From the NCBI GenBank assembly GCA_025041195.1, contig JAKCFM010000003.1:124001-188000 (forward strand): 64,000 nucleotides of DNA, read 5' to 3'. Positions 1-15,970 of this stretch are shown here, in pieces. A program made the position numbers and the translations under genes. The notes beneath the pieces are model-generated. The model worked only from the letters and a program-made list of their open reading frames with translations. It did no database searches and had not been told where the DNA came from. Positions within the stretch are counted from its first letter, which is position 1. Every line of letters begins with the position of its first letter. The DNA comes from Halobacteriales archaeon YIM A00013. GTDB lineage: Archaea > Halobacteriota > Halobacteria > Halobacteriales > Haloarculaceae.

Positions 1-713
1 TCGAATTCATCAAGTTTCTGGATCGCAGAACTCCTAGCCTGCTCAAACGAGATTATACCGAGGTTCCCACGAACCTCTTCCGGAGACATTCCCTGTGTAT
101 GCCGTTGGGCAAGCTCGAGAGAAAATATACGCCAGAACGTTACATTCACCGTCATCAATCTGGAGGGATCAGGAGAATGTGAGTGGAGCTCTCGTGTGAC
201 CGCATTATACCACTTAATTAGTGATCGATCGTCCTCCGGAAATCGATCGTTTGGAAATGATTCAAAAGTTTCGTGAACCGAACTGAGAACTGATTCTCTG
301 CTTGGATCAACCTCATAGAAATCGTGATACTCCGCATGTAACGTTCGTATTTTCTTATCCAACTCCCGAAACTCCCGCTGGACCTGATACGGCGCATCAT
401 CATACATTCTGTCTGTAAGCCATTCTAACCCGTGTTCGTAATATTCAGAGAGAACCTCGGAGACAACAGAACGCAGGCGATCTTCAAGTTCAGGCTCATT
501 AAGACCGGCTGAGGGGACAGTCGAGGGTGTGGCTGGTGAGACGGTACCAAAGAGATACCAATAATACGGGATCGAGATATCCAGATTTCGCTGGGAAGAT
601 TTGACGTCAATACGATAGAGGAGCTTGTGAAGCGACTTTTTCGGCAACGCGTCAGCGGCCCCACATTCGTGATTGAGGAGACGCAGAGTCGTTCCCAAAT
701 CCTCTCGGTTCAT
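1..713 (-). CDS. Unknown protein, 3' end beyond window edge
   Basis: An uninterrupted minus-strand reading frame of about 237 codons starts at an ATG at 711-713 (protein begins MNREDLGTTLRLLNHEC) and is still open at base 1, so the C-terminus lies outside the window. It is hydrophilic and mostly helical-looking, with no signal peptide or membrane segment and no catalytic motif I can name. Only about 110 bp separate it from the divergently transcribed nuclease-APAZ/short-Argonaute operon, so the two may share a regulatory region. Codon usage is haloarchaeal-like. I do not recognise the family, and a functional link with the Argonaute operon is only a guess from position. Confidence 0.6.
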   Translation of the reverse strand, partial: MNREDLGTTLRLLNHECGAADALPKKSLHKLLYRIDVKSSQRNLDISIPYYWYLFGTVSPATPSTVPSAGLNEPELEDRLRSVVSEVLSEYYEHGLEWLTDRMYDDAPYQVQREFRELDKKIRTLHAEYHDFYEVDPSRESVLSSVHETFESFPNDRFPEDDRSLIKWYNAVTRELHSHSPDPSRLMTVNVTFWRIFSLELAQRHTQGMSPEEVRGNLGIISFEQARSSAIQKLDEF

Positions 714-825
714 TATCACCGATATATACCGCTCGGATTATAGAAGTACCGTCGGTTCCCAGTAAACCATCCAATGACTGAGGGAAAAGTAATTCATACG
801 AGACTTCCTTGTAATAAGATACAAC

Positions 826-2247
826 GTGCCCATCTACAAACTATATAAAGAGCGGGAAGGGACGGCGCGACGCGGGGAGGACTATAAGGAAGTCGTCATT
901 GAGTACATGGAAGGGCTGAATCACATGGTCGAACGGGATTCAGCCTTTCACTCTACGCTTGATGACATCCAATTTGTGAACAAAGCTACGGGCGACAAAG
1001 TGGTCGCTGAGGCCAAAGCATATTCCACAGGTCTCAGTCCGAACGATTTTAGAGACGAACTGGCCCGATATTTCCTCGAATACATCAACCAACCCCTGCC
1101 CCATCGTTTTGATTTCTATATTTTTACTGAGACACTCTCCAATGAGCAGCTCTGGAAAGCCCTGTTCGATCGTGATGTCACCGACAACCAGAAACTGGTC
1201 GACTTCTACGAAAAACTCAAAGACAGCGTCAACGATGAGGTCGTAGATCGGCTAGATGATACTGATGTAGAAGAGTTCCAGGATTTCGCTATTGATACCC
1301 ATGTTTTCGTAGGTACATACGATGACCTCGGTCAACAAGCTCATCAACTCGAGAAAACAGAACGGTTCCAGTACGAGCCATATCTTCATGCGTATGAACC
1401 AGTTTCTGAGGAAACAGATTATGCGACGAATCTGTTTCAGGTAACCCGCTACCCAGAGACACTGTACATCATAGAGACGACGGAAGAGGCCGAATCTGCT
1501 CGCGTCTATAATTACAACAATGAAGCGTTCCCCATCAGGCTTCACAAGCGGAAATTATATTCGCTCGTTCATCCGGACCATCTTCCGGGATCTACTCGTC
1601 ATTACATACACGAGGACCGTTTCGAAACCCGAGAGTTCGAGGAGTTCCTCCGAACGCGCGCTCAAGAAAAGCATGAAAACATCGTAAGATCCCTTCTCAG
1701 GGGAATTTTCACTCTCGTTGCGAGAGATAACGATTGTCTCATCGACCGTGAGAAAGGAACAACTGTATACCCAGAACTTGACCGCAGACAGCACGGTACC
1801 GAGCGAAAACTAGGTCGATCATGGGTTGCAAAGGAGTTAGACACCTACTCGAATGTCATCCACCGAGGTGTCAAAGTACGAGTGCGACGCTATGCGGGAG
1901 AGTACTATTACGTTCTGCTACCCACACAGGTCTTCACATCAGACGGCCGTCTGCCTGTAACAGGCGAGCATAAATCTCGGCTCCAAAACGACTTCTCACC
2001 GAATCGTTTTCCCGGCCAGAATAGTAAATACGACCACCAACTGCGCGTCTGGGAAGAGCTGTTGATGTCGGATCAGACCCAGCTTGACCGGTTTATGGGT
2101 GAGTGGATACCCGTCGTAAAGGAACTCGAAGTAACTAGAGTTGATTCGATTTCCCTCGATGTCCGCCCACCCAAGGACGGAGACGAACGTGATGAGCTCA
2201 TCGAGTCAGCTCCGGATTTAGAAAACACAGGGGGATTTGAACAATGA
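826..2247 (+). CDS. Nuclease-APAZ protein, partner of short pAgo
   Basis: A 473-aa protein. The N-terminal ~120 residues have the layout of a PD-(D/E)XK restriction-endonuclease-like domain: an acidic helix around E22, acidic D46/D47, then E62-x-K64 in VVAEAKAY. The C-terminal half has no enzymatic motif and lies where an APAZ domain is expected, the module that replaces the N-PAZ half in short-Argonaute systems and holds the guide/target duplex with the pAgo. Its stop overlaps the start of the short Argonaute by 4 bp (ATGA), so the two are translationally coupled. In known systems (SPARDA-like, with a DREN or Mrr-like nuclease) target recognition releases indiscriminate nuclease activity and the cell dies or loses the plasmid. 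The nuclease class and the APAZ call rest on motif reading and gene context; the coupling is seen directly. Confidence 0.75.
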   Translation: MPIYKLYKEREGTARRGEDYKEVVIEYMEGLNHMVERDSAFHSTLDDIQFVNKATGDKVVAEAKAYSTGLSPNDFRDELARYFLEYINQPLPHRFDFYIFTETLSNEQLWKALFDRDVTDNQKLVDFYEKLKDSVNDEVVDRLDDTDVEEFQDFAIDTHVFVGTYDDLGQQAHQLEKTERFQYEPYLHAYEPVSEETDYATNLFQVTRYPETLYIIETTEEAESARVYNYNNEAFPIRLHKRKLYSLVHPDHLPGSTRHYIHEDRFETREFEEFLRTRAQEKHENIVRSLLRGIFTLVARDNDCLIDREKGTTVYPELDRRQHGTERKLGRSWVAKELDTYSNVIHRGVKVRVRRYAGEYYYVLLPTQVFTSDGRLPVTGEHKSRLQNDFSPNRFPGQNSKYDHQLRVWEELLMSDQTQLDRFMGEWIPVVKELEVTRVDSISLDVRPPKDGDERDELIESAPDLENTGGFEQ

Positions 2248-3662
2248 CGCCTGACGATTCCCCGTTCACGCTTCATCACCTCGAGGAGCCAGTAATTCAG
2301 TTTGAAGGTGGCACTGAAACCTCTCCCAAACGAGGGCTTATCAGATATGGCCCTCGGCTCTACGAGGAAGGCCACCATACAATCAAACTTGGTATTATCG
2401 GTAATCGAGATTCAATCCGCCGGTTGACCGAGCTACTTCATGATATGGAGGTCGGAATCCATCCAGGAACAAGTGATCATCCGTGGCAGGTCCCATATCC
2501 CGGCCTGGGCAAGAGTTCCCCGCTCAATCTCTCCATCAATGCAAAAAAGGGCTGGAGACGCCGAATTCGTCGACCAGACATCCAATCTGTTACGAGTAAA
2601 TCGGCCCCCAGAGATCGGATGGAGAGATTCCTGAAGCTAGTGCGGAAAGACATCGAGATTATCGAACGGGATTCAGTTCAGCCGAATGCGATCATCGTCT
2701 GTATTCCACAAGAAGTGATGGACGCGTGTACTCCTGAGAACCAGGACCATGCACGAATTCAGTCGGAAGGTTCGGACCTGCGAAATCGAATCAAGTTGAT
2801 CGGAATGAAAGCCCGAATCCCTACACAGCTGATTAAGCCATCCACACTTGCGATCCGTACTGATCGACAGCGAGCATCCCGAGCTTGGAATCTCACAGTT
2901 GGGCTTCTATACAAGTCTCAGCGAGGACATCCCTGGAAAACTCGACAGATCGAAGATGGGCACTGCTACGCAGGACTCTCGTTCTACAGAGAACGAGATG
3001 AAGGAGACGATGTAATTCGAGCTGCTCTTGCTCATGTCTTTCACGGACGGGACCATATTATCCTTCAGAGCGATCCGCTCCCGGATATCACCGAGGATCA
3101 AAATGGCTCTCCCCATCTCTCATATGAGGCGGCTAGACAGGTGGGTGAACAGATTCTGGAATACTACAAAGCTCAGAAAGGGACTTTTCCCAGCCGGTTT
3201 GTCCTACATAAGCCATCTGTCTTCTGGGAAGAAGAACGTGAAGGGTTGCTTGATGCCACTGGCGGTGTTCGTGATTTAGACCTAGTATGGGTTCGTAGGC
3301 GACCAAAGGTCAGGTTGTTCCCACCTACAGATTATCCCGCCATGCGGGGAACCCTCCTGAGCGTCCCTGATGACGACATCCACTATCTCTACACATCCGG
3401 ATATGTCCCAGAAGAGACGACCTATCAAGGAAGTGGAGTACCATCACCGATCGAGATTCGGCCTGACGAGATCTGTGAGACACCTTCGTTAGAGATTTGT
3501 AAGGAGATCCTCTTTTTCACTAAACTCGACTGGAATACATCGGACTACGCAATTCGGATGCCAGCAACTGTGAGTGTTGCAAAGCGTGTGGGTACAATCC
3601 TCTCTGAAGTAGATACTGAGTCCATTTCAGAGGTTCGACCACAATATTTCTATTATATGTGA
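2244..3662 (+). CDS. Short prokaryotic Argonaute (MID-PIWI), inactive
   Basis: A 472-aa protein with the size and order of a short pAgo. The MID-like part is followed by the boundary typical of these proteins (AWNLTVGLLYKSQRGHPW, about residues 216-233), then PIWI. The usual catalytic aspartates are replaced: the first is S246 (YAGLSF instead of GxD), and the HRD-type position reads H322-K323-P324 (LHKPSVFWEEE). It therefore should bind guide and target without cutting, as all short pAgos do. It overlaps the upstream nuclease-APAZ gene by 4 bp, and the two proteins are expected to form the functional heterodimer. The protein ends in aromatic residues (YFYYM), which fits the hydrophobic C-terminus of Argonautes in the guide 5'-end pocket. 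Family call is strong; mode of immunity is inferred. Confidence 0.85.
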   Translation: MTPDDSPFTLHHLEEPVIQFEGGTETSPKRGLIRYGPRLYEEGHHTIKLGIIGNRDSIRRLTELLHDMEVGIHPGTSDHPWQVPYPGLGKSSPLNLSINAKKGWRRRIRRPDIQSVTSKSAPRDRMERFLKLVRKDIEIIERDSVQPNAIIVCIPQEVMDACTPENQDHARIQSEGSDLRNRIKLIGMKARIPTQLIKPSTLAIRTDRQRASRAWNLTVGLLYKSQRGHPWKTRQIEDGHCYAGLSFYRERDEGDDVIRAALAHVFHGRDHIILQSDPLPDITEDQNGSPHLSYEAARQVGEQILEYYKAQKGTFPSRFVLHKPSVFWEEEREGLLDATGGVRDLDLVWVRRRPKVRLFPPTDYPAMRGTLLSVPDDDIHYLYTSGYVPEETTYQGSGVPSPIEIRPDEICETPSLEICKEILFFTKLDWNTSDYAIRMPATVSVAKRVGTILSEVDTESISEVRPQYFYYM

Positions 3663-3814: not shown

Positions 3815-4870
3815 CGGTGGCAACACGAGACAGCACTTATAGAGTATCTCGACGATCACCCTGATCTGGTTGATGCACTCGGTTTTGAAACTACACCTGC
3901 CCAGTCGACGATTTGGCTGGCTCGCCACGAGCGATTTAGCGATGAACTGCTCCGATCGATAGAGGAGTGTGTCGCCTCCCTCTGTCTATTGCGGCAGAGA
4001 ACGGTGTGTCCGTTCCGGTGAGTAACTCCAACTCGCTTGAGACTGATCTCCCACCGTTGGAGGAGCCAGATGATGAGTCCTCCCAACGAGATATTCTTCA
4101 GCGGGCAGACGAGGTAACTGCAGAGGCCCAGCGCCGCATTTTTCCAGCGTTTTCGCGTAATCGTGCGGAACAGGCATCGATTCCGGAAGACGCGTTCTGG
4201 GAGTTACAGACGTACCTCGGCCTCGGCGAGAACTTGTGTGCGAACGAGAGAGCCCGGAATTTTCTCACTGAATCGACGCGGAGACAGACTCCCCTCGGTT
4301 ACATTCATCGCCATCACCTTCGCCGATTTTCGATCGAATCGATTCGGGAGATGTACCATGAAGCCATACAACGGTTACTTGCCGAAACAACGAGTCGATC
4401 GCACTTTCTCGGTGCTGCGTCGGTGGCGATCGATACGACGGAGGCGAGTCCGTTTACTGGTGATCGGAGGGGCCACGAGGACGAAATTCTCGGGACAAAG
4501 AAGGATAACAACGAGTACGCATACCAGTGGGCCTCGATTCAGACGGTTTGTCGAGGCCCACGGATAATGCTTGACGCTCGCCCAGTCCGGAAGGGTGATA
4601 CACTTGTGGAGATTGTCACGGACCTCCTTGAGTCAGCAGAAGATTTGATTCAGATCGAGCGGGTGCTGATGGACCGAGAATTTGACAGCCAGCCCATCCT
4701 GGAGACGATCGTCGAGCGTGGTTACGAGTACATTCTCCCGAAGCGTAAGCAGACGAGCGAGAAAGCCGTTGCAAGCCGGATGGAGAAACACGGGGTGGAG
4801 TCGATGGTTAACAGATGTCCCAAGCCATCAACATTGACAATCCACTCTTTACGATCTCCGTTCTTCAGGG
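3815..4870 (+). pseudogene. Haloarchaeal DDE transposase remnant
   Basis: The N-terminal part (…EYLDDHPDLVDALGFETT…) reads in one frame up to about 3968. It then continues in another frame (…IAAENGVSVPV…) through conserved transposase blocks such as AIDTTEASPFTG, GHEDEILGTK, EYAYQWAS, LDARPVRKGD and VLMDREFDSQ. The shift of frame at about 3965-3970 breaks the gene. The C-terminal part is also missing: after about 4815 the reading frame only mirrors the antisense of the neighbouring helicase gene. I see no terminal inverted repeats. It lies between the short Argonaute operon and the 3' end of the convergent helicase gene and marks an old insertion and recombination point. The exact IS family was not determined. 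Confidence 0.7.
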
Positions 4871-4881
4871 CAGAGAGGATG

Positions 4882-7800
4882 TTACTCAGAGGTCGTGATT
4901 GTTTGTTCTCGATTTTGTTCGAAACTATCGAACCAGGAAGTAAGCACGCTGCAGTCGATATCCTCGACGACCGTCCCATCGTCGATGAGCCGACCAAGCT
5001 CATTTTCTCGACCCCACCCACAGAGAACAGGGTTCTCTGCGATATCCTCTTTGGGCTCTGCTTGGCGAACCAAGCGCAGGGGATCTTCGCTTACGTCACG
5101 AATCACGTTGACGAGCTGAGTCAAAAGCGGATTACCTGGTGCGAGGTACTGTATAGATGGGAATTCGTCCGCACATTCTGCGGAGAATGTCACTGCGATC
5201 GCGTTATCCTCGGGTGCAATGGCCTGAGCGAGCGTCTGCTCGCCATCGGACTGTGGTAGTTCAATCAATTCTCCGTCAGTAGCAAGGCGATACGTGTTCT
5301 CCTCAAAGGCTACGTCGTTGACGGAGTCGATATTATCCATATCAAACTCCAGATCATCGATTTGCGTGAATTCGATGTCCAAGTCAGCCAGTGTCTCATT
5401 GCCGACGAAAACCGCCTGCAAGCTTTCAACTTCGAACGGTGCTGGATACTCGTATTCAGTATCACCGACATCGACGATATCCGGATGGTTGTAGGACTGC
5501 CATGCATCGAGTTTTGCCTCATCAATGACATCCTGTGCAACGAGTGAATCGACGGTGTCCAGTGATTCTCCGACATCAACCCGGTCACCTTGGTCTTGTT
5601 CTGTGATCTGCTTGGAGAGCTCACTGTCTGCCTCTTCAACAACCTGCTGGCTCTCCTCACGATCGGATTTGAGGACAGCATCTCGAATCTGGTGACTCAC
5701 CCCAGAGAGGATAGGCTGCATCTCACCAACAACGTTCTCGAACAATCCGATTCGGTCATCAAGTCGATCGTAAATGTCGGTCTCGACAGTATCCTCGTAG
5801 CTGTAGTTGAGGATGGTAACCTCATCGAACCGCTGACCAATACGATCAATTCTGCCGATTCGTTGTTCGACACGCATTGGATTCCACGGGAGATCGTAGT
5901 TGATGAGCGCACCACACTCCTGCAGGTTGAGTCCTTCACTCGCGGAGTCCGTACAAACGAGGATATCGACATGGCCCTCGTCAGATGAAAATTCACGCTT
6001 GACCCGTTCCTTCCCGACCTGTCTCCATTCACCAGATTCGCGATCGTACACCTCGCCACCGCGTCCGGAGTAGGTTGCAACTGTTTCACCGTGTATAGAG
6101 ACAAGGCTTTCGCGGATGAAGTCCATCGTGTCTGCGTACTGGGTAAACACGATTGCCCGGTTATAGCCCTCGCGATGCAGTTCGTCCAGGTCCTCGATTA
6201 GTTGCCCAATCTTCGGGTCTCGGTCGATCGCTGTGAGTTCATCCACGAACGACTCTAACTCCTCTATCTCCTGTTCCAACAGGTGAAGTCCTTCATCAGT
6301 GACGTTGGGGATAATTTCTGCCAGATCCACGTCTTCGAGATCACCTTCTAACTCGTCAAGCGCATCGGCATCATCGAGATTATACTCAGAGAGGGTTTCC
6401 ATGATGACTTGCTGGGAACCCATCGATGGACGATCCTTCGCTCGTTGCTTGCCTTTCAGGACTGTTCTTTGTCTCCGGAGCTTCCGGAGACGATTGTGAA
6501 GGCTCTGTGAAATCGCGTACACACTGCTGGTGAGGCGCTGTCGGTACGTGGTCATGACAAACCCGATTGCTCGGGACTCGGCCTCGTCCGACTGTTGGGC
6601 GAGTTTGTAGAACTTCCGTGTGAAGTCGTCGATCCGGTCGTACACCCGGCGAGTCTCATCAGTAAGTTCGATCTTGTGTTGGTCTGGATCACGGTCGGGA
6701 ACCGTCGCGTCGAGGAGCCCAACTCGTTCGTACTTCCGAAGAGTGTCACGAGTGTTCCGATGAATGAGCGCTTCAACCGGCGTCGACTCAGAGAAGACAT
6801 CTTGAATGACCTGCCAGCCCGACTCTGACAGCTCGTCAAGCGCGGCAAGCCGCTCGTTTCGCGAGAAAGTCAACCATTCTTGGTCGGCCTTCCACTCAGG
6901 ATAGAGAAGATATTTCAGCTTCTCGTCCTCTCTGGCATCGAATGGATCGACGTCGTGGACTTCCATCGAGGATTCGAACCGATCGATATATCCATCGTAG
7001 TGCTCGCCGTAATCACTGGCGAGATCACAGGCGCTCAGAACACGCTGTTTCGCGATGGATCGTGCGTGCTGTTCATCTTTCACCTCCAGTTCGGAACCGA
7101 TCGAATCGAATATCTGATCTGAAAGGCCTTGGGTTCCGGAAAGTCGGTCCTGGTAGCGCCCTTCAGAGAGTGTCGCCTGTGTGGACCACGAGTCTGTGTC
7201 TCCAGACGAATCGCTCGCTGCTACGACCTCGTCGAGCGCCTTCGTGAGTGCTCGTCGGGTTTCGAAGAACTCGACGAACTGTTCCTGGTTGTCCCATGCT
7301 CCAGGGAGATCGAGCAGAGCCATCAAGTCGTACAGTTCGCCTGCATGCAACTGCATCGGCGTCGCCGTGAGCAGGTAGTAGGTCTGTGTATGGTCGCGGA
7401 ACTGTTCGAGCATCGAGTAGAAGTTGCTCCCCTCGCGACCGTTGTGTGCCTCGTCGACGATGACCGCATCCCAGACACCTTCTCGATTGGATGAATCCCG
7501 GCCACGACAACTCGCGGGGACATCCTCCCGCGTTCGGACATCACCACCGGCTTCGGGTGCCACCTGGTTCCACCGATCCTTCAATCGTGCCGTATGCCAG
7601 GACATGATGATGATTGAGGGAGCACTGGTAGCGGTGTTGGTTCGTTGCTCGTGAAGGAACCGCCAGATAGGACTATTGACCCATGCCTGCTCGCGTTCGT
7701 CACGCTTGAGGTTGAGTTCCGATGCTGTAGGAGGAGTATGCTCGCGATCGAAGGCATCGATAAAGGCGTACTCGTAGTCGCTCCCACGCTCGTACCGATA

Positions 7801-8826
7801 CGTATTCAAGTTGAACTTCTCCCACATCTCCTCCTGCCACTGAACGGTGAGGCTCGCTGGGACGAGCAGCAGGCCAGTTTCGAGTTCGTCGGTGAGTCCA
7901 AGCCGTGAGAGTGTTAAACCTGCCTCAATGGTTTTCCCAAGTCCAACCTCGTCGCACAGCAAGAAGCTGTTCGGATAGGTATTGACGAGTGTATCAGAGA
8001 CAACCCGTTGGTGCGGCCACGGTGTGATCGTACTTCCTTTCTCTGCGAGCGCCAGCCCACCGAGAGAGAGGGGTCCGTCGGCGATGATATTGGCTTTGTC
8101 TCGGTCGGTCGGCGGCGCTTCGCCACGGGCGATCTGGATTGCTTCCTCCAGTTCCGTCTGTGAGTCCGGGTCTTTCCAGTCGATGAGTTCTTTCTTGATG
8201 GCCTCCGGTAGGTCATAGACTTCGACGTAGGGATGTTCGTCCGTCCAGAGTCGTTCGAACGTATCGATATCATCATCAACGTACATCGACTGCTGCTCAA
8301 CCCACGAGCGATGGACCTTGAACCGTTCGTAGTTATTCTTCCAGCCCCCAACGGTCTCGTTGACGCTACCTTCGAAGGAGAGGACGTTTCCATCTTCGTC
8401 GTGGAATACGCCCATCTTCGGGTGGAAGATTCGCCACGAGCCCTGACGAGAGACAGCGACTTTGATGTGGAGCCGATCCTCATGGAGGAGCCGAGCGAGA
8501 AGTTGAAGCTGGGCGTCTAACTGTTCGTCTTCGAGCTTTTCCAGCGAGTTGGCCAGCTCGTCAGTAACCGCCTCAAAAACGGGACGGTCAGTGGTGTAGA
8601 GTTCTGTCCCCACGACCAGCCGCATTTCACCGTCGTTCTCGAGAAGTGCATCGATCCCTCGGGAGGCAACTGCGAGCGCACTGCTGGAGAAATAGCCCGC
8701 GATACGATCGTAACGAATCGATCGTTCGAGTGCAGGGACGTAAAATTCGTTAACTAGATACATCCCATCGGCAGCGGGCTTGCTCTCGTAGATTGAAGAC
8801 CAGATTCGATCCGGGAATGTCGACAT
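4882..8826 (-). CDS. PLD-domain SNF2-family DNA helicase
   Basis: A 1314-aa protein. The N-terminal region (about residues 20-180) is a phospholipase-D-like domain with an HxK motif (IFHPKMGVFHD, near residue 135) followed by FEGSVNET. A SNF2 helicase core follows: Walker A in DEVGLGKTIEAGL (~295), DEAH box in VIVDEAHN (~457), and helicase C-terminal motifs SEGLNLQ and EQRIGRIDRIGQ (~950-995). It is the last gene of the minus-strand operon with the DUF1156-type methyltransferase and DUF499-type ATPase, 75 bp downstream of the methyltransferase. In DISARM and related systems a helicase and a PLD protein act as the anti-phage arm while the methyltransferase marks self DNA; here both activities sit in one chain. 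The role as defence effector is inferred from context. Confidence 0.85.
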   Translation of the reverse strand: MSTFPDRIWSSIYESKPAADGMYLVNEFYVPALERSIRYDRIAGYFSSSALAVASRGIDALLENDGEMRLVVGTELYTTDRPVFEAVTDELANSLEKLEDEQLDAQLQLLARLLHEDRLHIKVAVSRQGSWRIFHPKMGVFHDEDGNVLSFEGSVNETVGGWKNNYERFKVHRSWVEQQSMYVDDDIDTFERLWTDEHPYVEVYDLPEAIKKELIDWKDPDSQTELEEAIQIARGEAPPTDRDKANIIADGPLSLGGLALAEKGSTITPWPHQRVVSDTLVNTYPNSFLLCDEVGLGKTIEAGLTLSRLGLTDELETGLLLVPASLTVQWQEEMWEKFNLNTYRYERGSDYEYAFIDAFDREHTPPTASELNLKRDEREQAWVNSPIWRFLHEQRTNTATSAPSIIIMSWHTARLKDRWNQVAPEAGGDVRTREDVPASCRGRDSSNREGVWDAVIVDEAHNGREGSNFYSMLEQFRDHTQTYYLLTATPMQLHAGELYDLMALLDLPGAWDNQEQFVEFFETRRALTKALDEVVAASDSSGDTDSWSTQATLSEGRYQDRLSGTQGLSDQIFDSIGSELEVKDEQHARSIAKQRVLSACDLASDYGEHYDGYIDRFESSMEVHDVDPFDAREDEKLKYLLYPEWKADQEWLTFSRNERLAALDELSESGWQVIQDVFSESTPVEALIHRNTRDTLRKYERVGLLDATVPDRDPDQHKIELTDETRRVYDRIDDFTRKFYKLAQQSDEAESRAIGFVMTTYRQRLTSSVYAISQSLHNRLRKLRRQRTVLKGKQRAKDRPSMGSQQVIMETLSEYNLDDADALDELEGDLEDVDLAEIIPNVTDEGLHLLEQEIEELESFVDELTAIDRDPKIGQLIEDLDELHREGYNRAIVFTQYADTMDFIRESLVSIHGETVATYSGRGGEVYDRESGEWRQVGKERVKREFSSDEGHVDILVCTDSASEGLNLQECGALINYDLPWNPMRVEQRIGRIDRIGQRFDEVTILNYSYEDTVETDIYDRLDDRIGLFENVVGEMQPILSGVSHQIRDAVLKSDREESQQVVEEADSELSKQITEQDQGDRVDVGESLDTVDSLVAQDVIDEAKLDAWQSYNHPDIVDVGDTEYEYPAPFEVESLQAVFVGNETLADLDIEFTQIDDLEFDMDNIDSVNDVAFEENTYRLATDGELIELPQSDGEQTLAQAIAPEDNAIAVTFSAECADEFPSIQYLAPGNPLLTQLVNVIRDVSEDPLRLVRQAEPKEDIAENPVLCGWGRENELGRLIDDGTVVEDIDCSVLTSWFDSFEQNREQTITTSE

Positions 8827-8901
8827 TATAAGGACGTTATTTTCTGTTCATCTCTATCACACTTATAGTGTGTGACGAAAGAGTGCAGGTCGAGGACTGA
8901 T

Positions 8902-11784
8902 TCAGTAGTCGTCGATGCCTGCCTGATGGGTCTGATCGCTATCTTCGGCGAAGACGTTCGGACTGAACTCAAGGTCTAGCACGTCTTTCGTTCGCCCGAC
9001 AGCGAGGTCACGGGCGAGTTCCCAGTCCTCGTGGTCATGCGGGAGCACCTGCAGAAGCGCCTTGAGCGTCGCTTTGAACGTTGAGTCCGTGCCGAAGTTT
9101 CGCTCACGGAGCCAGTCACAACAGGCGCTTTCGCCTTGGACATCGTAGACGTGTATCGCGGCATGAACCTTGTCTAGTGCCAGGCCGAACGAGAGGTCGT
9201 CGGGATTCACCGGGGTGCGACTGGACCGGTTCTCGGGTTTTTCGTTGATATTCTGGACGCGGCCTGTGTGGTCGCGCAGTTTAATGTCGCCGCGACTCTT
9301 CCGCCACGTCTTGGTGCTGCGCTTGATATCGTCGATATCGACGCCGATACCGAGGCCTAACTGTCTGCCCTCGTCGTAGGAGAACGTCTCTGCCTCGTGT
9401 ACCAGCCAACAGAGAACGTACCATTCGGTAACATCATCAAGGTCGTTTATCCCCTCAACTTCAAGGTACTCGTCAACGAGAACCTGTGTCACCGCCTCGC
9501 GGGCCTCTTCGAGAGCACGTCGCGGTTTGACTTCGTTGTCCTCGTCGTCAACAACTGGGTAGGCATCAGCGAATACGCGTAGTGTCGGCCCGAACGCGCT
9601 GATGATGACATCAGTCTTCGTGAGACTCAAACCTGAGTCGATGAGGTTGCGGGCGGCTTCCTTCGCAGCGCTTCGAGTGTCTGTCTTAACGTCCGTCCAG
9701 AGGGTAGGGATTGCGTTTTCAGGATCTCGTTCCTCGTGGGGCTTTCGACCGGTCAAGAGTAGCGTGCTGTCAGCCGAGGCACTTGTCCGCATCCCGGCCC
9801 GCTGAGGCATCTCGCTCGTAATTGGGTGGGTAGATGTGATAGTGAACCCAGAGTTGATGAGCGACATAGTCAGAGTGTCCCAAGCGTCTGTTTCTTTGTG
9901 TGTAAACATCACCGTCATTACACCACCAGATTCGAGAACCCGGTAGAGTTCGGAGAAAATATCGCTCATCTTCTGCTCATAGTAATCATTAGCTAGTTTA
10001 CGCTTTGATGAACCGTTTCCTGCAACAGAGCTGAATCGATCAGGATTTGCTATAGCTTCATTTTCTTTATCTGTTAGGCTGTGTTGGAAAATATTGGGAA
10101 AAACTTCCTTCAATACTTCTCGCATCCAAACGTAGAATACATCAGATAATTCAGAATACATAATACTACTGTAGTAGGGGGGATCAATTACAACAGCATC
10201 AATACTGTCGTCATCATGTGGTAAAGATGCTGTATCACCCACACTCATATTTGCTGAATTGCTTCTTTCAGGTAAATAATTAACCAACTCTTTATAGGAA
10301 TTATATATCTTCTCAAGATATGAGAGAAAGTCAACGCCCCCTTTTGAGATATTTGTATCAACAAATATCCGCTTGAAGGCATAATTTTGGGATTTGAACA
10401 TTTGGCTGGGATATCCTTTGCTTGTATCCCAAGGAGTAAGCCGTGAATTTCGATCTACTAACTTGCTGATGGTGAGCGTTAGTAGAGTTAGAATGGCTTC
10501 GGTAGTGTTAGTATCGTATTCCTCGCTAATCTGGGGTCGATAGTAGTTAATTGCATCAATATACTCATAATTAGAGATTAATTGGCGTGGAGAGAACATA
10601 TCTCTCCATTCATTCATTCCGTAATTATGGAGTTCAGATGTTTTGTTGCCTTCTGGGATAGGCGTTGAGAGAAAGGAAGACAGAGTGAAATCAGAGTTAT
10701 TTCGATGCTGGGCTTCTTTAGCGGCTTCACGGTCTTCTACTTCCGGTGACCGAAAGCCATGGCTACCATTGCTCTTGAGATATCGAACACAGTAAATATC
10801 GTAGTTGAATTCACCTTTATTCAATCGTCTTCGAACTTCATCGTCTTCAGTGACAACATGACAGTTCAGGCACTCTGTATCCCCCCCACGAGAGACAGGA
10901 CCATTATTCGGGTCAAATCCTTCCAGATCTTCGTCATCCGGATCAACAATTACATTGTAATCAACTGACTTATCATCCTGAATCTCGGGACGAACAACTA
11001 CTCGAATGCCATCACTTCGAGTTCGTATCCACCACTTTGGTACCAATGGAATATCAGATCCACACGAGTTACACTGAATATTGTAAGTAGATACATAATT
11101 TATTGGCGTTCTATTATTTCGTTGACCTGGGAAGTACTCCTCTATATTCGACTTAGCTCGCTTGTTTACTTTTTCTGCCCAGTATCTCACTTCAGTTTCT
11201 ATATCGCCAACCTTCGGGGCATACTCCAACATTACCTTGAGGATAATAGATGGAACAGGATTTAGCTCATTTACATGAGTCGGTAGACCGTATCTGAGTG
11301 ACTCATAAGGAATGACTCCACCACCAGCAGTTGGATCCAATACCTCTGGAAGGTTTCCACCCCATTGATCTCGCAGCCTCTCTTGAATCTCTTCTATTTC
11401 ACTCTCGGTCGGAGAGAGAGTAAACGGCCGTGGGTATCCATAGTGACTTGCTAAGTTCCCACTCCGTTTGTTCTCTGTTGCTTTCTTACGTTCTACATAT
11501 TCGCTGAGACTCCCATCAATCTCTTTGTTTGGCCCAATCTGCATCCAGCGAAGTAGGTCATCGGTGTCAGTTCCTTTTGGGAGGACCGATGCAAGGATTG
11601 CTAACCTGGAAGCAGGAGTAGGTCGGCGTGCGAACCAAGGATGAAGATAACGATGAGGGGGGAGATACTGCGGATTCGCCTCTCGAAGATTTTCGATACC
11701 AACTACCTTCAGCGGAAGTTTCCCTTCAATAGCGAGTGGTTTCAAAGACTCTTTATCTGAGTTCTGAGTTGGTTGTTTACTCAT
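8902..11784 (-). CDS. DUF1156-type DNA adenine methyltransferase
   Basis: A 960-aa protein. The N-terminus has the DUF1156 signature (PLKVVGIENLREANP, HRYLHPWFARRPTPASR). The SAM-binding motif LDPTAGGGVIPYES lies near residue 150, a zinc-finger-like pair of CxxC motifs (CNSCGSD and CLNCHV) lies in the insert, and the catalytic DPPYYSS motif near residue 535 fits an N6-adenine or N4-cytosine amino-methyltransferase with the two motifs widely separated. It should modify host DNA as self-marking for the cassette. It starts 1 bp from the stop of the upstream accessory gene. About 9950-11784 (N-terminal two thirds) is clearly AT-richer, while the last ~1 kb and all the other operon genes are GC-rich, so this gene looks like a recombinant mosaic. 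Confidence 0.85.
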   Translation of the reverse strand: MSKQPTQNSDKESLKPLAIEGKLPLKVVGIENLREANPQYLPPHRYLHPWFARRPTPASRLAILASVLPKGTDTDDLLRWMQIGPNKEIDGSLSEYVERKKATENKRSGNLASHYGYPRPFTLSPTESEIEEIQERLRDQWGGNLPEVLDPTAGGGVIPYESLRYGLPTHVNELNPVPSIILKVMLEYAPKVGDIETEVRYWAEKVNKRAKSNIEEYFPGQRNNRTPINYVSTYNIQCNSCGSDIPLVPKWWIRTRSDGIRVVVRPEIQDDKSVDYNVIVDPDDEDLEGFDPNNGPVSRGGDTECLNCHVVTEDDEVRRRLNKGEFNYDIYCVRYLKSNGSHGFRSPEVEDREAAKEAQHRNNSDFTLSSFLSTPIPEGNKTSELHNYGMNEWRDMFSPRQLISNYEYIDAINYYRPQISEEYDTNTTEAILTLLTLTISKLVDRNSRLTPWDTSKGYPSQMFKSQNYAFKRIFVDTNISKGGVDFLSYLEKIYNSYKELVNYLPERSNSANMSVGDTASLPHDDDSIDAVVIDPPYYSSIMYSELSDVFYVWMREVLKEVFPNIFQHSLTDKENEAIANPDRFSSVAGNGSSKRKLANDYYEQKMSDIFSELYRVLESGGVMTVMFTHKETDAWDTLTMSLINSGFTITSTHPITSEMPQRAGMRTSASADSTLLLTGRKPHEERDPENAIPTLWTDVKTDTRSAAKEAARNLIDSGLSLTKTDVIISAFGPTLRVFADAYPVVDDEDNEVKPRRALEEAREAVTQVLVDEYLEVEGINDLDDVTEWYVLCWLVHEAETFSYDEGRQLGLGIGVDIDDIKRSTKTWRKSRGDIKLRDHTGRVQNINEKPENRSSRTPVNPDDLSFGLALDKVHAAIHVYDVQGESACCDWLRERNFGTDSTFKATLKALLQVLPHDHEDWELARDLAVGRTKDVLDLEFSPNVFAEDSDQTHQAGIDDY

Positions 11785-11785
11785 G

Positions 11786-12427
11786 TTAGATGTGGTCAGT
11801 TAGTAACGTTCGCAGCGCTTTCTTGCCGTTCGGTGAAGACGGAGATCGACACTTCGCGTGCCAGTAGTAGCACTCTTCATCACTCATCCGCGCGATACCG
11901 CGGCAGAACGCCCGCATCCGGTCGACACGCTGAATCGGCTTCACACCGAGAAACTCCAGAGCGAGACGGATACCGACCGTCTCCGGAAGGAACACCTCAG
12001 CATTGCCTGTGGTCGTGACGACCGACTCGTCGAGATCAGCGCCATGGAGTGTCTCGCGCACCGGTGGAAGAGTCGCGCGTAGGCGACTCCCGGACAAGCG
12101 AGAGATCTTCACCGCTGTCCAGTCGTCCCACTCCCATCGATCGACTTCGGGATCAGCCGACGCTCCGAACACTGTTTCGAACGATTTAGTCACGAACCCC
12201 CGGTTTGGATTCCTGCGCTGATACCGATCACGACGGGCGTCGGCCTGATCTTCCGGGAGTAGTTCGTACAGTGTTAGCGACGCACCATCGACATCGTCGC
12301 GACGTTCGAGCGCGAACGTCGGTCGACCCCCGTACACGCTGCTTCCAAAACGACCAGCAGCGAAGGCGTCACTCTTGGCTGGAGCCGACGTCACTGAATC
12401 GCCGTTGAGTGTTGGATGTGAGGTCAT
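11786..12427 (-). CDS. Small accessory protein of defence cassette
   Basis: A 213-aa hydrophilic protein sandwiched between the DUF499-type ATPase (stop of that gene overlaps this start by 4 bp) and the methyltransferase (1 bp gap), so it is certainly part of the operon. It has no membrane segment and no known catalytic motif. The C-terminal block CRGIARMSDEECYYWHAKC with clustered Cys, His and Trp is the most distinctive stretch and could be a binding module. Cassettes of this kind in haloarchaea and bacteria often contain a short uncharacterised protein at this position (DUF3780-like or DUF7680-like); I cannot decide which family it belongs to. Function unknown. Confidence 0.75.
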   Translation of the reverse strand: MTSHPTLNGDSVTSAPAKSDAFAAGRFGSSVYGGRPTFALERRDDVDGASLTLYELLPEDQADARRDRYQRRNPNRGFVTKSFETVFGASADPEVDRWEWDDWTAVKISRLSGSRLRATLPPVRETLHGADLDESVVTTTGNAEVFLPETVGIRLALEFLGVKPIQRVDRMRAFCRGIARMSDEECYYWHAKCRSPSSPNGKKALRTLLTDHI

Positions 12428-15400
12428 GAGTGGAGCTCTGCGGGAACTTCGACGGGCCCTCGACCTTGAACTTTCACGTTGATACTGGTCTGTCCGAGTT
12501 CTTCTCGGAGTTCAGCGAGTACGTCGTCTTCGGCGTCTGTAATCGGTTTTGGTTCGTCCAGATCTACTCGGAACTTGAGTTCGACCCGTGACGCGCCGTC
12601 AAACGAATCGGGTTGGTTGGTGACGCGGGAGAACTCATCAACGCCGCCTGTAAACTGCGCCTGATACGTCGCGCCGCCCGACGATTCCGTCTCGTATCGC
12701 ATTCGTACAGAGACGTTCTCAGCCAGATCCTTGAACACTTGGCGTTGAGCGATGAACGACCCCTTCGACAGTTGATCCTCGCCCCCAACTTCGATCGTAA
12801 CCCGATCGATACCGGGTGTACCCCCCGACGCAGCCTTTCCGAGTGCGTGGGTTCGTACCTCATTGAATGATCGGGAGGCGGCCATCAAGCTCGTCGCACG
12901 CTCCCAGTCGTTCGGCTGGGCACAGTCGGCACAGAGTCCACGCGGATTCAACTCGTTCTGACTCCCAACACTCGTTCCACAACTGGCACACTCATGTTCA
13001 ATATCCGGCTCGTGTTTTGAACAGAAGTCTCCTTCCTGATCGACTTCGACATCACAGCCTTCCGTTGCACACAGTATCTCCTCTGTCTCCGGCGGACGGA
13101 TGGTATCGTGATGAACATCGAGAAGAGCATTGATGTCGGTATAGACGACGTATTCGTCACCTATCTTCACGTCTGAGTCTCGAACGCTGGTTCGGACATC
13201 GATGGATTCCGAGAGCGGATTCGCCTTCCGCCAATTCTCCGGCCGATCATCCTCGTCGCCGTCCCAGTAAGCAAGTCCATCCTCACCAGCTATGCTATCC
13301 CAGTAACTGTAACCGGCGTCGTCGACCATCTTGGCCACCGTCTTACGCACCGGCTTCGTGTTGAGGAGATACGGAAGACCTGGCTTCTTCGCGAACTGCG
13401 TGACCAACTGCTCGGTGGTCATACTGTCTTGTGTCTGCTGCCAGAGCTTCTGCGTGAAGAACGCGACGCCCTTCGGGCCGGCGTCGGCACGGATCAGCCG
13501 GTCTTCGAGCGTCTCTTCGACAGCGTTGACGAGCGTCGTCCCACCGTTCGCTTCGGTGGCGTTGATCGCCAAGTGGGTTAGGCCGTCGCGATCGACGTAG
13601 TACAGGTGCCGATAGACGCCACGGACGAGCTCGCCTAGGAGTCCGTGTGTCTGGTCCCGTCGTTCGCGAAGCTCCACGATCTGTTCATCGGAGAGATCAG
13701 CTGTCTGCTGGGAATCATCTAGTAGCGCCTCGATTGCCTCAAGCTGACGTGCCTCATCGATAGTACTCTGGATGCGTTCGTGGTCGGGGGCAAGGAAGAG
13801 AACATAGTTCTTGTAGACCCGACTCTGGGTCTCACCGCCGTGCTTAGACGCAGACTTCTGATACAGCGTCTGTATTTTCTCCGGAACCTCGCTACCGCCA
13901 TCGGAGACAGGTGCGGTGTCCATGTGCATCACTGCGAGTTGTGGCTTGGACATCGTATCCCGGAGATCTGCCGGCGATTCTGGGAAAACGACGGTTTTGA
14001 AGCCACCAGTTCCGATCTCGGAATTCTCCAACCGCGATTCGAATCGATTGCGGGCACGCGCGTCAGGCGTGTTGTCTACACGCTGATCGATGATTCGGAT
14101 GAGATTTGGGTCGGACTTGAATCGAACACGCTCCTCATCGTAGAGGTAATAGCACGCAACGTTCATGTCCCCACCTGCGAGGGCTTCGAGGGTTGAGTCG
14201 TAGTTGTCGAAACGGATCTCTGGATGTCCAAGTGCAGCATTCATCTCTGCCCGTGTGAGTCCAGTAGCCTGTTCGCCGTAGGCAAGGCTGTGCCAGAGCA
14301 CAGTCGTCGTGAGGTGACTAGCCAGCGGTGGAATTCCCTTCCCAGTCCACTTGCGGTCTTCTAGCTGTGCGTGCGCGGTGTCGTCCTCGCTGTAGATGTC
14401 GGCTGACACAGCTGCACTCAGGTCAACGAACTCGAAGAGCGTCTCCCGGAGCGTCGAATCGATACTCCCATCAGGCGCGTTGTCTGCTGGAGTGAGGTCA
14501 TACAGACGAATCCAGTGCCGCTCGTAGTGAGCTGGTTGGTGATTCCAGAGGTAGTAGACGGCACGAGCGAGAAGCTTCAGCGCCCCACGGGTTCGCTGGA
14601 ACTTGGGGATTGTATCGATTTTTTCAGTGAGCGTATCGATGATCGTCGGATGGAAGGGATACTCTCGCTCCAGTCGATCGACGAAGCTTGCGTCAGTCGC
14701 TTCCTGGGGGAACTGCCGGTCGCTATCAGCATACAACTGGAAATACGATGCTGACACTGCTTCTGCCTGCTCGTGATTAATCTCCTCGAAGAGACGGTGT
14801 TGGAGAACCTGCCCCACCTCATTTTCGGATGTCGGTGTGACCGTCTTGTGTTGACGGCGGCCGATCTGATTGAGTTCGTCAATAAGCGTTCGAACCTCCT
14901 CCGCTTCCTCTTCGAAGGCAGTGTCAGCAATACTATAGACTACCGTGACGTTGTCGACATCAGACGCAGTCTCAAGAAGAGAGAGGATGAAACTCAGTGT
15001 CTGACTGGCGAGTGTTGCGGTCCCAACTTCGACGGCAGATGCTGCCTCGAGATAGGCTGCAATCTCATCGACAAGGATGAGTGCGGGATCGTCGCCGAGA
15101 TCGAAGAGACCCTTCAGCGTGTTTCCGCCAGGAGCGTTGCGCTCTTGGTCATACTCTTTGAGATATTCGTATCCATCGAGCCCGTACAATTGGTAGGCGA
15201 TTTCACCCCACATCGTGCGGGTATTCGGGGCGTTCGGATCCGTCCGATCACTCCGAGCGTTGCGAGCGTCAACATGCCCACCGACGAATACAGCAGTGTC
15301 GACTGACAATCCCTCGCGAACGGCATCCAGATATGCGTTGCCAACGGTATTCGCACTATCCACGAGATGCTGATCGAGGTTTTCGATGTCGACTGGGCTC

Positions 15401-15735
15401 GTTGCAAGATGATAGGAAGCGATAAGGTCGTGAGTCTTCCCGCCACCGAAGCGAGTATCTAAACAGAGGATACTGCTCGAGTAGCCACCATCTTCGTAGC
15501 CGCCACCAGCAAGGAATCGACCGGACAGATTAGTCAGTAGTGTTCGTAGCCCATCGGTAGGATACGTCATGTCGAAGAATTGCGTTGCGTCCCGGTAAAC
15601 TGGTGCAGCGTCATCACCCGAGTGAGCGACTGTCGCCAGGCTGGCTGCAAACTGATCCTCTTGGAGTGTACCATCGAGGACATCATCTCGGGGCGTACAC
15701 GCTTCGAATAGATTTGGGTATTCCCCGCTACTCAT
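12424..15735 (-). CDS. DUF499-type AAA+ ATPase
   Basis: About 1103 aa. I chose the start MSSGEYPNLFEACTPR at 15735 over an upstream Met at 15819 because the extension is low-complexity, shadows the preceding gene and is not typical of the family, and because 15735 gives an 8-bp overlap with the upstream regulator. Walker A is GGGKTHD (near residue 96) and Walker B is LILVDEIAAYL (near 220). Near residues 890-945 there are two zinc-binding clusters (CATEGCDVEV with FCSKH, and CASCGTS with CADCAQ). DUF499 proteins are large P-loop ATPases that accompany DUF1156 methyltransferases and helicases in predicted defence cassettes; ATP-driven sensing or DNA translocation is likely but unproven. Confidence 0.85.
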   Translation of the reverse strand: MSSGEYPNLFEACTPRDDVLDGTLQEDQFAASLATVAHSGDDAAPVYRDATQFFDMTYPTDGLRTLLTNLSGRFLAGGGYEDGGYSSSILCLDTRFGGGKTHDLIASYHLATSPVDIENLDQHLVDSANTVGNAYLDAVREGLSVDTAVFVGGHVDARNARSDRTDPNAPNTRTMWGEIAYQLYGLDGYEYLKEYDQERNAPGGNTLKGLFDLGDDPALILVDEIAAYLEAASAVEVGTATLASQTLSFILSLLETASDVDNVTVVYSIADTAFEEEAEEVRTLIDELNQIGRRQHKTVTPTSENEVGQVLQHRLFEEINHEQAEAVSASYFQLYADSDRQFPQEATDASFVDRLEREYPFHPTIIDTLTEKIDTIPKFQRTRGALKLLARAVYYLWNHQPAHYERHWIRLYDLTPADNAPDGSIDSTLRETLFEFVDLSAAVSADIYSEDDTAHAQLEDRKWTGKGIPPLASHLTTTVLWHSLAYGEQATGLTRAEMNAALGHPEIRFDNYDSTLEALAGGDMNVACYYLYDEERVRFKSDPNLIRIIDQRVDNTPDARARNRFESRLENSEIGTGGFKTVVFPESPADLRDTMSKPQLAVMHMDTAPVSDGGSEVPEKIQTLYQKSASKHGGETQSRVYKNYVLFLAPDHERIQSTIDEARQLEAIEALLDDSQQTADLSDEQIVELRERRDQTHGLLGELVRGVYRHLYYVDRDGLTHLAINATEANGGTTLVNAVEETLEDRLIRADAGPKGVAFFTQKLWQQTQDSMTTEQLVTQFAKKPGLPYLLNTKPVRKTVAKMVDDAGYSYWDSIAGEDGLAYWDGDEDDRPENWRKANPLSESIDVRTSVRDSDVKIGDEYVVYTDINALLDVHHDTIRPPETEEILCATEGCDVEVDQEGDFCSKHEPDIEHECASCGTSVGSQNELNPRGLCADCAQPNDWERATSLMAASRSFNEVRTHALGKAASGGTPGIDRVTIEVGGEDQLSKGSFIAQRQVFKDLAENVSVRMRYETESSGGATYQAQFTGGVDEFSRVTNQPDSFDGASRVELKFRVDLDEPKPITDAEDDVLAELREELGQTSINVKVQGRGPVEVPAELHS

Positions 15736-15970
15736 TGGAACCGTCCGTGTTGGAGCGGGTGGGCTTAGATACGATAACGAACTCCTCGTGCGTGCTGTTA
15801 TCAATAATCGCGTGGGCAATACCCTTGGATTCAGCGATATCGATTTTAATGGGATCTCCGACGCCAGTGTTGAACTTGTTGAGTTCGGGACCAGATAAAT
15901 TTACACGGCCGGATTTCCCAGTATTCTTTCCGATTGTTTTCCGAGTCATCTGGATAGTCTCACTATCCAA
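15728..15970 (-). CDS. AbrB/SpoVT-like regulator
   Basis: An 80-aa protein with the swapped-hairpin AbrB pattern (GKSGRVNLSGPEL, VGDPIKIDI), first gene of the methyltransferase-helicase operon and overlapping the ATPase start by 8 bp. Such proteins act as autoregulators or antitoxin-like DNA-binding proteins. An internal ATG at 15949 (MTRKTIGK) is an equally good start. With that start two palindromes (15952-15968 and 15982-15999) and a TATA-like ACTATACC would sit upstream at leaderless-promoter distance. The likely role is to keep the cassette under control, with autoregulation inferred from the palindromes. Confidence 0.6.
   Translation of the reverse strand: MDSETIQMTRKTIGKNTGKSGRVNLSGPELNKFNTGVGDPIKIDIAESKGIAHAIIDNSTHEEFVIVSKPTRSNTDGSNE

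Follow-up and report, generated by a model that had tools for sequence, protein, structure and literature searches.

A SPARDA-like short Argonaute system of haloarchaea, encoded in a conserved four-gene unit with a toxin-antitoxin-like pair

Short Argonaute (pAgo) systems have been studied in bacteria as two-gene systems. In SPARDA, known from Nba, Xau and Tmu, a DREN/DUF4365 nuclease fused to an APAZ domain is encoded with a short pAgo, and in its strict sense the name stands for this nuclease family together with RNA-guided DNA recognition that leads to filament formation and collateral nuclease activity. A further system, present in the PDB as 9om4, joins a short pAgo to an HNH-APAZ protein. 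In archaea, an APAZ group III has been described that comprises 18 proteins encoded in pAgo operons, without any other recognised domain (Ryazansky et al., 2018; PMC6299218), and PADLOC-DB (2023) holds a pair of families, Aga_REase_Archaea and its pAgo (PDLC02417 and PDLC02392). The locus presented here lies in a window of 64,000 nucleotides from Halobacteriales archaeon YIM A00013 (contig JAKCFM010000003.1, positions 124,001 to 188,000), a haloarchaeon, as an earlier note made from the sequence alone had supposed.

Two intact open reading frames encode an effector and a short pAgo at the positions that the note had given, with the ATGA overlap that it had taken as translational coupling (Table 1). 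They belong to the same families as the PADLOC pair over nearly their full length (profile positions 1-415 of 416 for the effector), pAgo genes adjoin nearly every effector relative found when genome contigs were searched with the single effector protein as query, and omega against relatives is 0.04-0.10 for both, indicating purifying selection. Both ORFs are therefore genes, and the two-gene effector-pAgo system is of an already known kind. The GTG start of the effector is kept in near relatives. Single-protein scans of the two proteins against Pfam and NCBIfam gave no match, and the pAgo similarity, claimed earlier, is borne out by the PADLOC profile. The closest solved relative of the pAgo is 9om4_B, from the HNH-APAZ system (E=7.6e-55), while SPARDA pAgos match at E=1e-52 to 1e-46 and those of SPARTA and SPARSA are more remote. 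S246, H322 and K323 stand where the catalytic aspartates would be and are invariant in 17 aligned pAgos; the protein is thus catalytically dead by its residues, as had been read from the single sequence, and the loss of the aspartates characterises the whole family, just as it does other short pAgos.

Table 1. Coordinates of the features discussed. Positions are those of the window unless another locus or contig is named; negative positions lie to its left.
Feature	Position	Strand	Details
PIN-domain gene	G000:C3:123074-123868, outside the window, ending at -929	-	PF01850, E=1.4e-4
282-284-aa gene, Panacea-like antitoxin candidate	1..719 in the window, ORF on to -135	-	probable ATG at 713; hhalign to PF13274 proteins
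Divergent intergenic region, 112 bp	714..825		gene geometry; presumed bidirectional promoter
Nuclease-APAZ effector gene	826..2247	+	473 aa, GTG start; PADLOC PDLC02417, E=1e-163
Predicted N-terminal PD-(D/E)XK-type nuclease domain of effector	826..1365	+	about residues 1-180; invariant columns in 20 sequences
Codons of invariant effector residues	E11 856-858, D47 964-966, E62 1009-1011, K64 1015-1017	+	20-sequence alignment
APAZ domain of effector	1393..2205	+	about residues 190-460; profile search of PDB and hhalign
ATGA start/stop overlap, effector-pAgo	2244..2247	+	sequence
Short pAgo gene, MID-PIWI only, catalytically inactive by residues	2244..3662	+	472 aa; PADLOC PDLC02392, E=1.5e-214
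Five-gene operons with split pAgo	L100 3941-9391; L149 2120-7509		two haloarchaea

A profile built from 20 effectors retrieved from the PDB the APAZ chains of SPARDA (9qbl_A, E=1.6e-14; 9jsb_D, 3e-13) and the HNH-APAZ chain 9om4_A (1.2e-10), all hmmsearch matches being confined to the APAZ part (profile positions 195-459), and hhalign aligned the C-terminal part of the effector with seven bacterial DUF4365-APAZ proteins at a probability of 99.3% (E=4.7e-20). By these comparisons the C-terminus, earlier called APAZ-like, is homologous to the APAZ of bacterial SPARDA. The N-terminus is supported as a nuclease domain of PD-(D/E)XK type by its conserved residues and its predicted fold. E11, D47, E62 and K64 are invariant among the 20 aligned effectors (mean column identity 38%), and E18 is almost invariant; of the four active-site residues proposed in the earlier note, D47, E62 and K64 stand, and E22, which is not conserved in these proteins, is out as a candidate, the invariant upstream glutamate being E11. 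The AlphaFold model (mean pLDDT 70, pTM 0.54, with low confidence at residues 1-15 and 38-45) begins with a helix, three strands, a helix and a strand (alpha-beta3-alpha-beta), a topology also reported for the DREN domain with its catalytic D41/Q60/K62 (PMC12205087). When this model was compared to the PDB with Foldseek, SPARDA chains ranked first (9qcc_A, E=4.9e-13), followed by SPARTA and SPARSA. The alignments to SPARDA chains cover nearly the whole effector, but the score is carried mainly by APAZ: matches of 266 columns restricted to that domain score nearly as high, and the nuclease part adds little. That the domain is DUF4365/DREN itself is ruled out at the level of sequence profiles, since PF14280 (DUF4365) is absent from all 20 effector members searched and hhalign of the N-terminal 180 residues against seven bacterial DREN domains gave no significant match (probability 0.2%, E=0.34). 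We consider the predicted nuclease domain to be weakly tied to DREN.

Judged from these sequence comparisons, the system is SPARDA-like by design, as the earlier note had proposed, and not a DUF4365-SPARDA in the strict sense. It shares with SPARDA the order of effector and pAgo, the dead PIWI domain, the homologous APAZ, the PD-(D/E)XK topology and the best structural matches, as well as a gene overlap that several of the fetched bacterial loci also show. It differs in a nuclease that is not detectable as DUF4365 and that carries ExK instead of the QxK of SPARDA, in its haloarchaeal host and in being part of a four-gene unit. The HNH-APAZ system has the closest solved pAgo and a homologous APAZ, but its nuclease is HNH where ours would be PD-(D/E)XK. 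As for APAZ group III, it is archaeal, remote from groups I and II and found in pAgo operons, like the family here, which probably corresponds to it as matched by description, although group III was described with no domain besides APAZ (PMC6299218) whereas our effectors have an N-terminal nuclease-type domain. The suggestion of a new APAZ fusion type is accordingly not supported, given the PADLOC family and group III; what speaks for it is a nuclease domain that sequence profiles do not detect as DUF4365/DREN.

Extending the window leftward (L056, G000:C3:108001-124800) revealed that the conserved unit does not start with the effector. In most copies, a block conserved at the DNA level (around 90% identity, in relatives from about ten genera, including Halorhabdus, Haloarcula, Halosimplex, Natrinema, Natrialba and Halorarius) runs from -929 to exactly 3662, and its two ends coincide with the end of a PIN-domain gene and the stop of the pAgo gene. 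The interval of 826-3662 first assigned to the operon is thus exact on its right and too short on its left, where the window edge cuts through the unit and where two divergent genes, encoding the PIN protein and a Panacea-like protein of 282-284 aa, had been missed. These two genes overlap by ATGA, and the 282-284-aa gene is divergent from the effector; in our reading, a TATA-like sequence may lie on each side of the intergenic region that separates this gene from the effector gene. The unit is often plasmid-borne.

The association of the four genes is very constant. Among 194 haloarchaeal genomes, the PIN and 284-aa genes were found in 18-19, including all 17 genomes with an effector, at adjacent coordinates, and in a sample of 381 genomes the 284-aa gene stood beside the effector in 33 of 33 effector genomes. 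In this larger sample the 284-aa profile splits the genomes cleanly, with 35 above 160 bits and the remainder below 90, and the 35 are the 33 effector genomes plus two, G138 and G312, to which we return below. A 34th effector genome, fetched separately (G404, locus L164), also contains both genes. The haloarchaeal loci fetched keep the same divergent four-gene order even for distant effectors at 19-25% identity, the exceptions being loci truncated at contig ends, disrupted by insertions or decayed (e.g. L112 and L117). The four proteins have correlated pairwise distances (Mantel r=0.86-0.95, 12 loci after removal of near-duplicates, p<=0.0002), hence the four genes diverged together, and omega is 0.04-0.14 across all four, again indicating purifying selection. 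In haloarchaea, the conserved unit is of four genes, not two.

Around the unit, a DDE transposase gene (PF01609; window 3967-5259, + strand) lies between the pAgo and helicase genes, overlapping the helicase end. The region at 4882-15819 on the - strand encodes a PLD/SNF2 helicase, a DUF1156 methylase and DUF7680 and DUF499 proteins (PADLOC PbeA/HmaB-like) and probably makes up a further defence system; in L049, L053, L054 and L055, a related helicase region adjoins the pAgo unit. L054 and L055 are loci of a Halosimplex aquaticum plasmid, where an insertion of some 1.05 kb, annotated in the record with an IS630 family transposase, breaks both effector copies at an identical site.

Outside haloarchaea, methanogen-type and other relatives have the effector and the pAgo, but the flanks fetched for them contain no PIN/284 pair, and the pair is therefore not needed everywhere for the core mechanism. 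One non-haloarchaeal relative (L104 2755-4182, G640:C159) encodes a Schlafen AlbA_2 domain (PF04326, E=1.4e-11) followed by an APAZ-like C-terminus, with a short pAgo at 4148-5704; we did not find this effector type listed for APAZ proteins without SIR2 in the literature searched.

The PIN protein adopts, by its sequence, a PIN fold with conserved acidic residues and is a candidate ribonuclease or toxin. PF01850 matches 8 of 15 members at E values around 1e-4, the host's own protein falling just below the curated cut-off; E44, D208 and D225 are invariant in the family and position 7 is D or E. The 284-aa protein is more elusive. No PADLOC model matched it or the PIN protein, no homologue was present in the phage collection, PF13274 (Panacea) was not significant for the family in Pfam, and a Pfam match to Nlig-Ia (E=0.2) was discarded as noise. 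A known fold was likewise sought by Foldseek of its model against the PDB, with nothing significant. When the family was compared with Panacea proteins by hhalign, however, probabilities reached 79-94% (E=1.7e-5 to 1.5e-7), against 0.1-8% for four unrelated families used as null controls, and the alignment pairs the K..KL.Y and WY.yG motifs. The 284-aa protein is thus a candidate remote homologue of the antitoxin Panacea, and the simplest reading of the pair is a toxin-antitoxin-like module. Panacea (PanA) toxin-antitoxin pairs are likewise overlapping two-gene units, in which a toxin-like gene comes after the Panacea homologue, and PIN/VapC-like toxins occur in their network (PMC10440598); here, the protein is divergent from PF13274 and linked to pAgo operons. 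Elsewhere in haloarchaea there are 284-like/PIN-like pairs that are more distant and free-standing, without pAgo, some of them beside helicase or methylase genes (L150-L161), and these possibly form a wider haloarchaeal toxin-antitoxin family.

The same pair recurs with a second class of pAgo. Both G138 and G312 carry a co-directional five-gene operon that opens with the 284-aa and PIN genes and also encodes a protein of 331-332 aa and a PIWI protein of 436 aa, which in G138 match the N-terminal and C-terminal parts of the class II pAgo model, respectively, and a putative membrane protein of 432-438 aa with transmembrane helices apparent by eye. We take this operon to resemble pAgo systems of the split or pseudo-short kind that have a membrane effector. 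That the pair recurs with two pAgo classes speaks for a role connected with pAgo function.

We consider it likely that the locus encodes a SPARDA-like immune system and, coupled to it, a conserved toxin-antitoxin-like pair. The dead short pAgo would be in complex with the PD-(D/E)XK-APAZ nuclease and, by analogy with SPARDA, would carry a small guide and recognise invading DNA; recognition would lead the complexes to assemble and activate the nuclease, whose indiscriminate cleavage would shut down the invader and probably the cell. The PIN protein could then act as a second strike that cuts RNA, set free once the nuclease has destroyed the locus or brought expression to a halt. Alternatively, the pair could be a guard by which loss of the pAgo system is punished. 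A possible analogy is CreTA, the toxin-antitoxin guard of CRISPR-Cas, also coupled to guided immunity and known in haloarchaea, though CreTA, which Cascade represses, is RNA-based (PMC9458426, PMC8501985) whereas both partners here are proteins. It seems to us about as likely as not that PIN and its Panacea-like partner take part in haloarchaeal pAgo immunity across both pAgo classes, be it as second effector, guard or maker of guide RNAs. Among these roles, we place guide making below a second strike or a guard, because relatives outside haloarchaea do without PIN and its partner is antitoxin-like.

The most serious alternative, which we find appreciably less probable than coupling, is that the system is a two-gene SPARDA-like one and that the pair is an independent addiction module, stabilising only the plasmid or the locus. 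It agrees with the frequent plasmid location, with the absence of the pair from non-haloarchaeal relatives and with the pairs that exist without pAgo, so that it may be a self-standing hitchhiker. An unlinked stabiliser should nonetheless come and go, while the pair is found at every sampled haloarchaeal effector locus in constant order and orientation, has diverged together with effectors down to 19-25% identity, and belongs to the same PIN/284 clade that recurs beside the second pAgo class. Recurrence with two classes, together with the conserved active-site residues of PIN and its co-divergence with pAgo (r around 0.86-0.90), would also suit a PIN protein that cuts RNAs to make or trim pAgo guides under regulation by the 284-aa protein; we deem this specific role unlikely, as work on bacterial SPARDA has dealt with a system of two genes (PMC10810196, PMC12205087), the non-haloarchaeal relatives have no PIN and the Panacea-like partner points to a toxin-antitoxin. 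Finally, the lack of a Pfam nuclease match or a significant DREN profile match and the low model confidence near the N-terminus might suggest an inactive, structural domain in a system that acts by binding alone, a very improbable reading given four invariant residues in such divergent effectors and a family that PADLOC names REase.

In the literature searched (published papers, mostly open-access) we found no description of the PIN/284 pair or of a link between PIN, Argonaute and APAZ. If the coupling that we favour is true, the PIN/284 pair would be a third and fourth component of pAgo immunity, offering a handle on the role of a ribonuclease in it, whether in guide making, in a second strike or in guarding. 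A close copy of the unit, with all its genes annotated as hypothetical, is present on pNG600 of Haloarcula marismortui, a culturable and sequenced strain in which these possibilities are testable.
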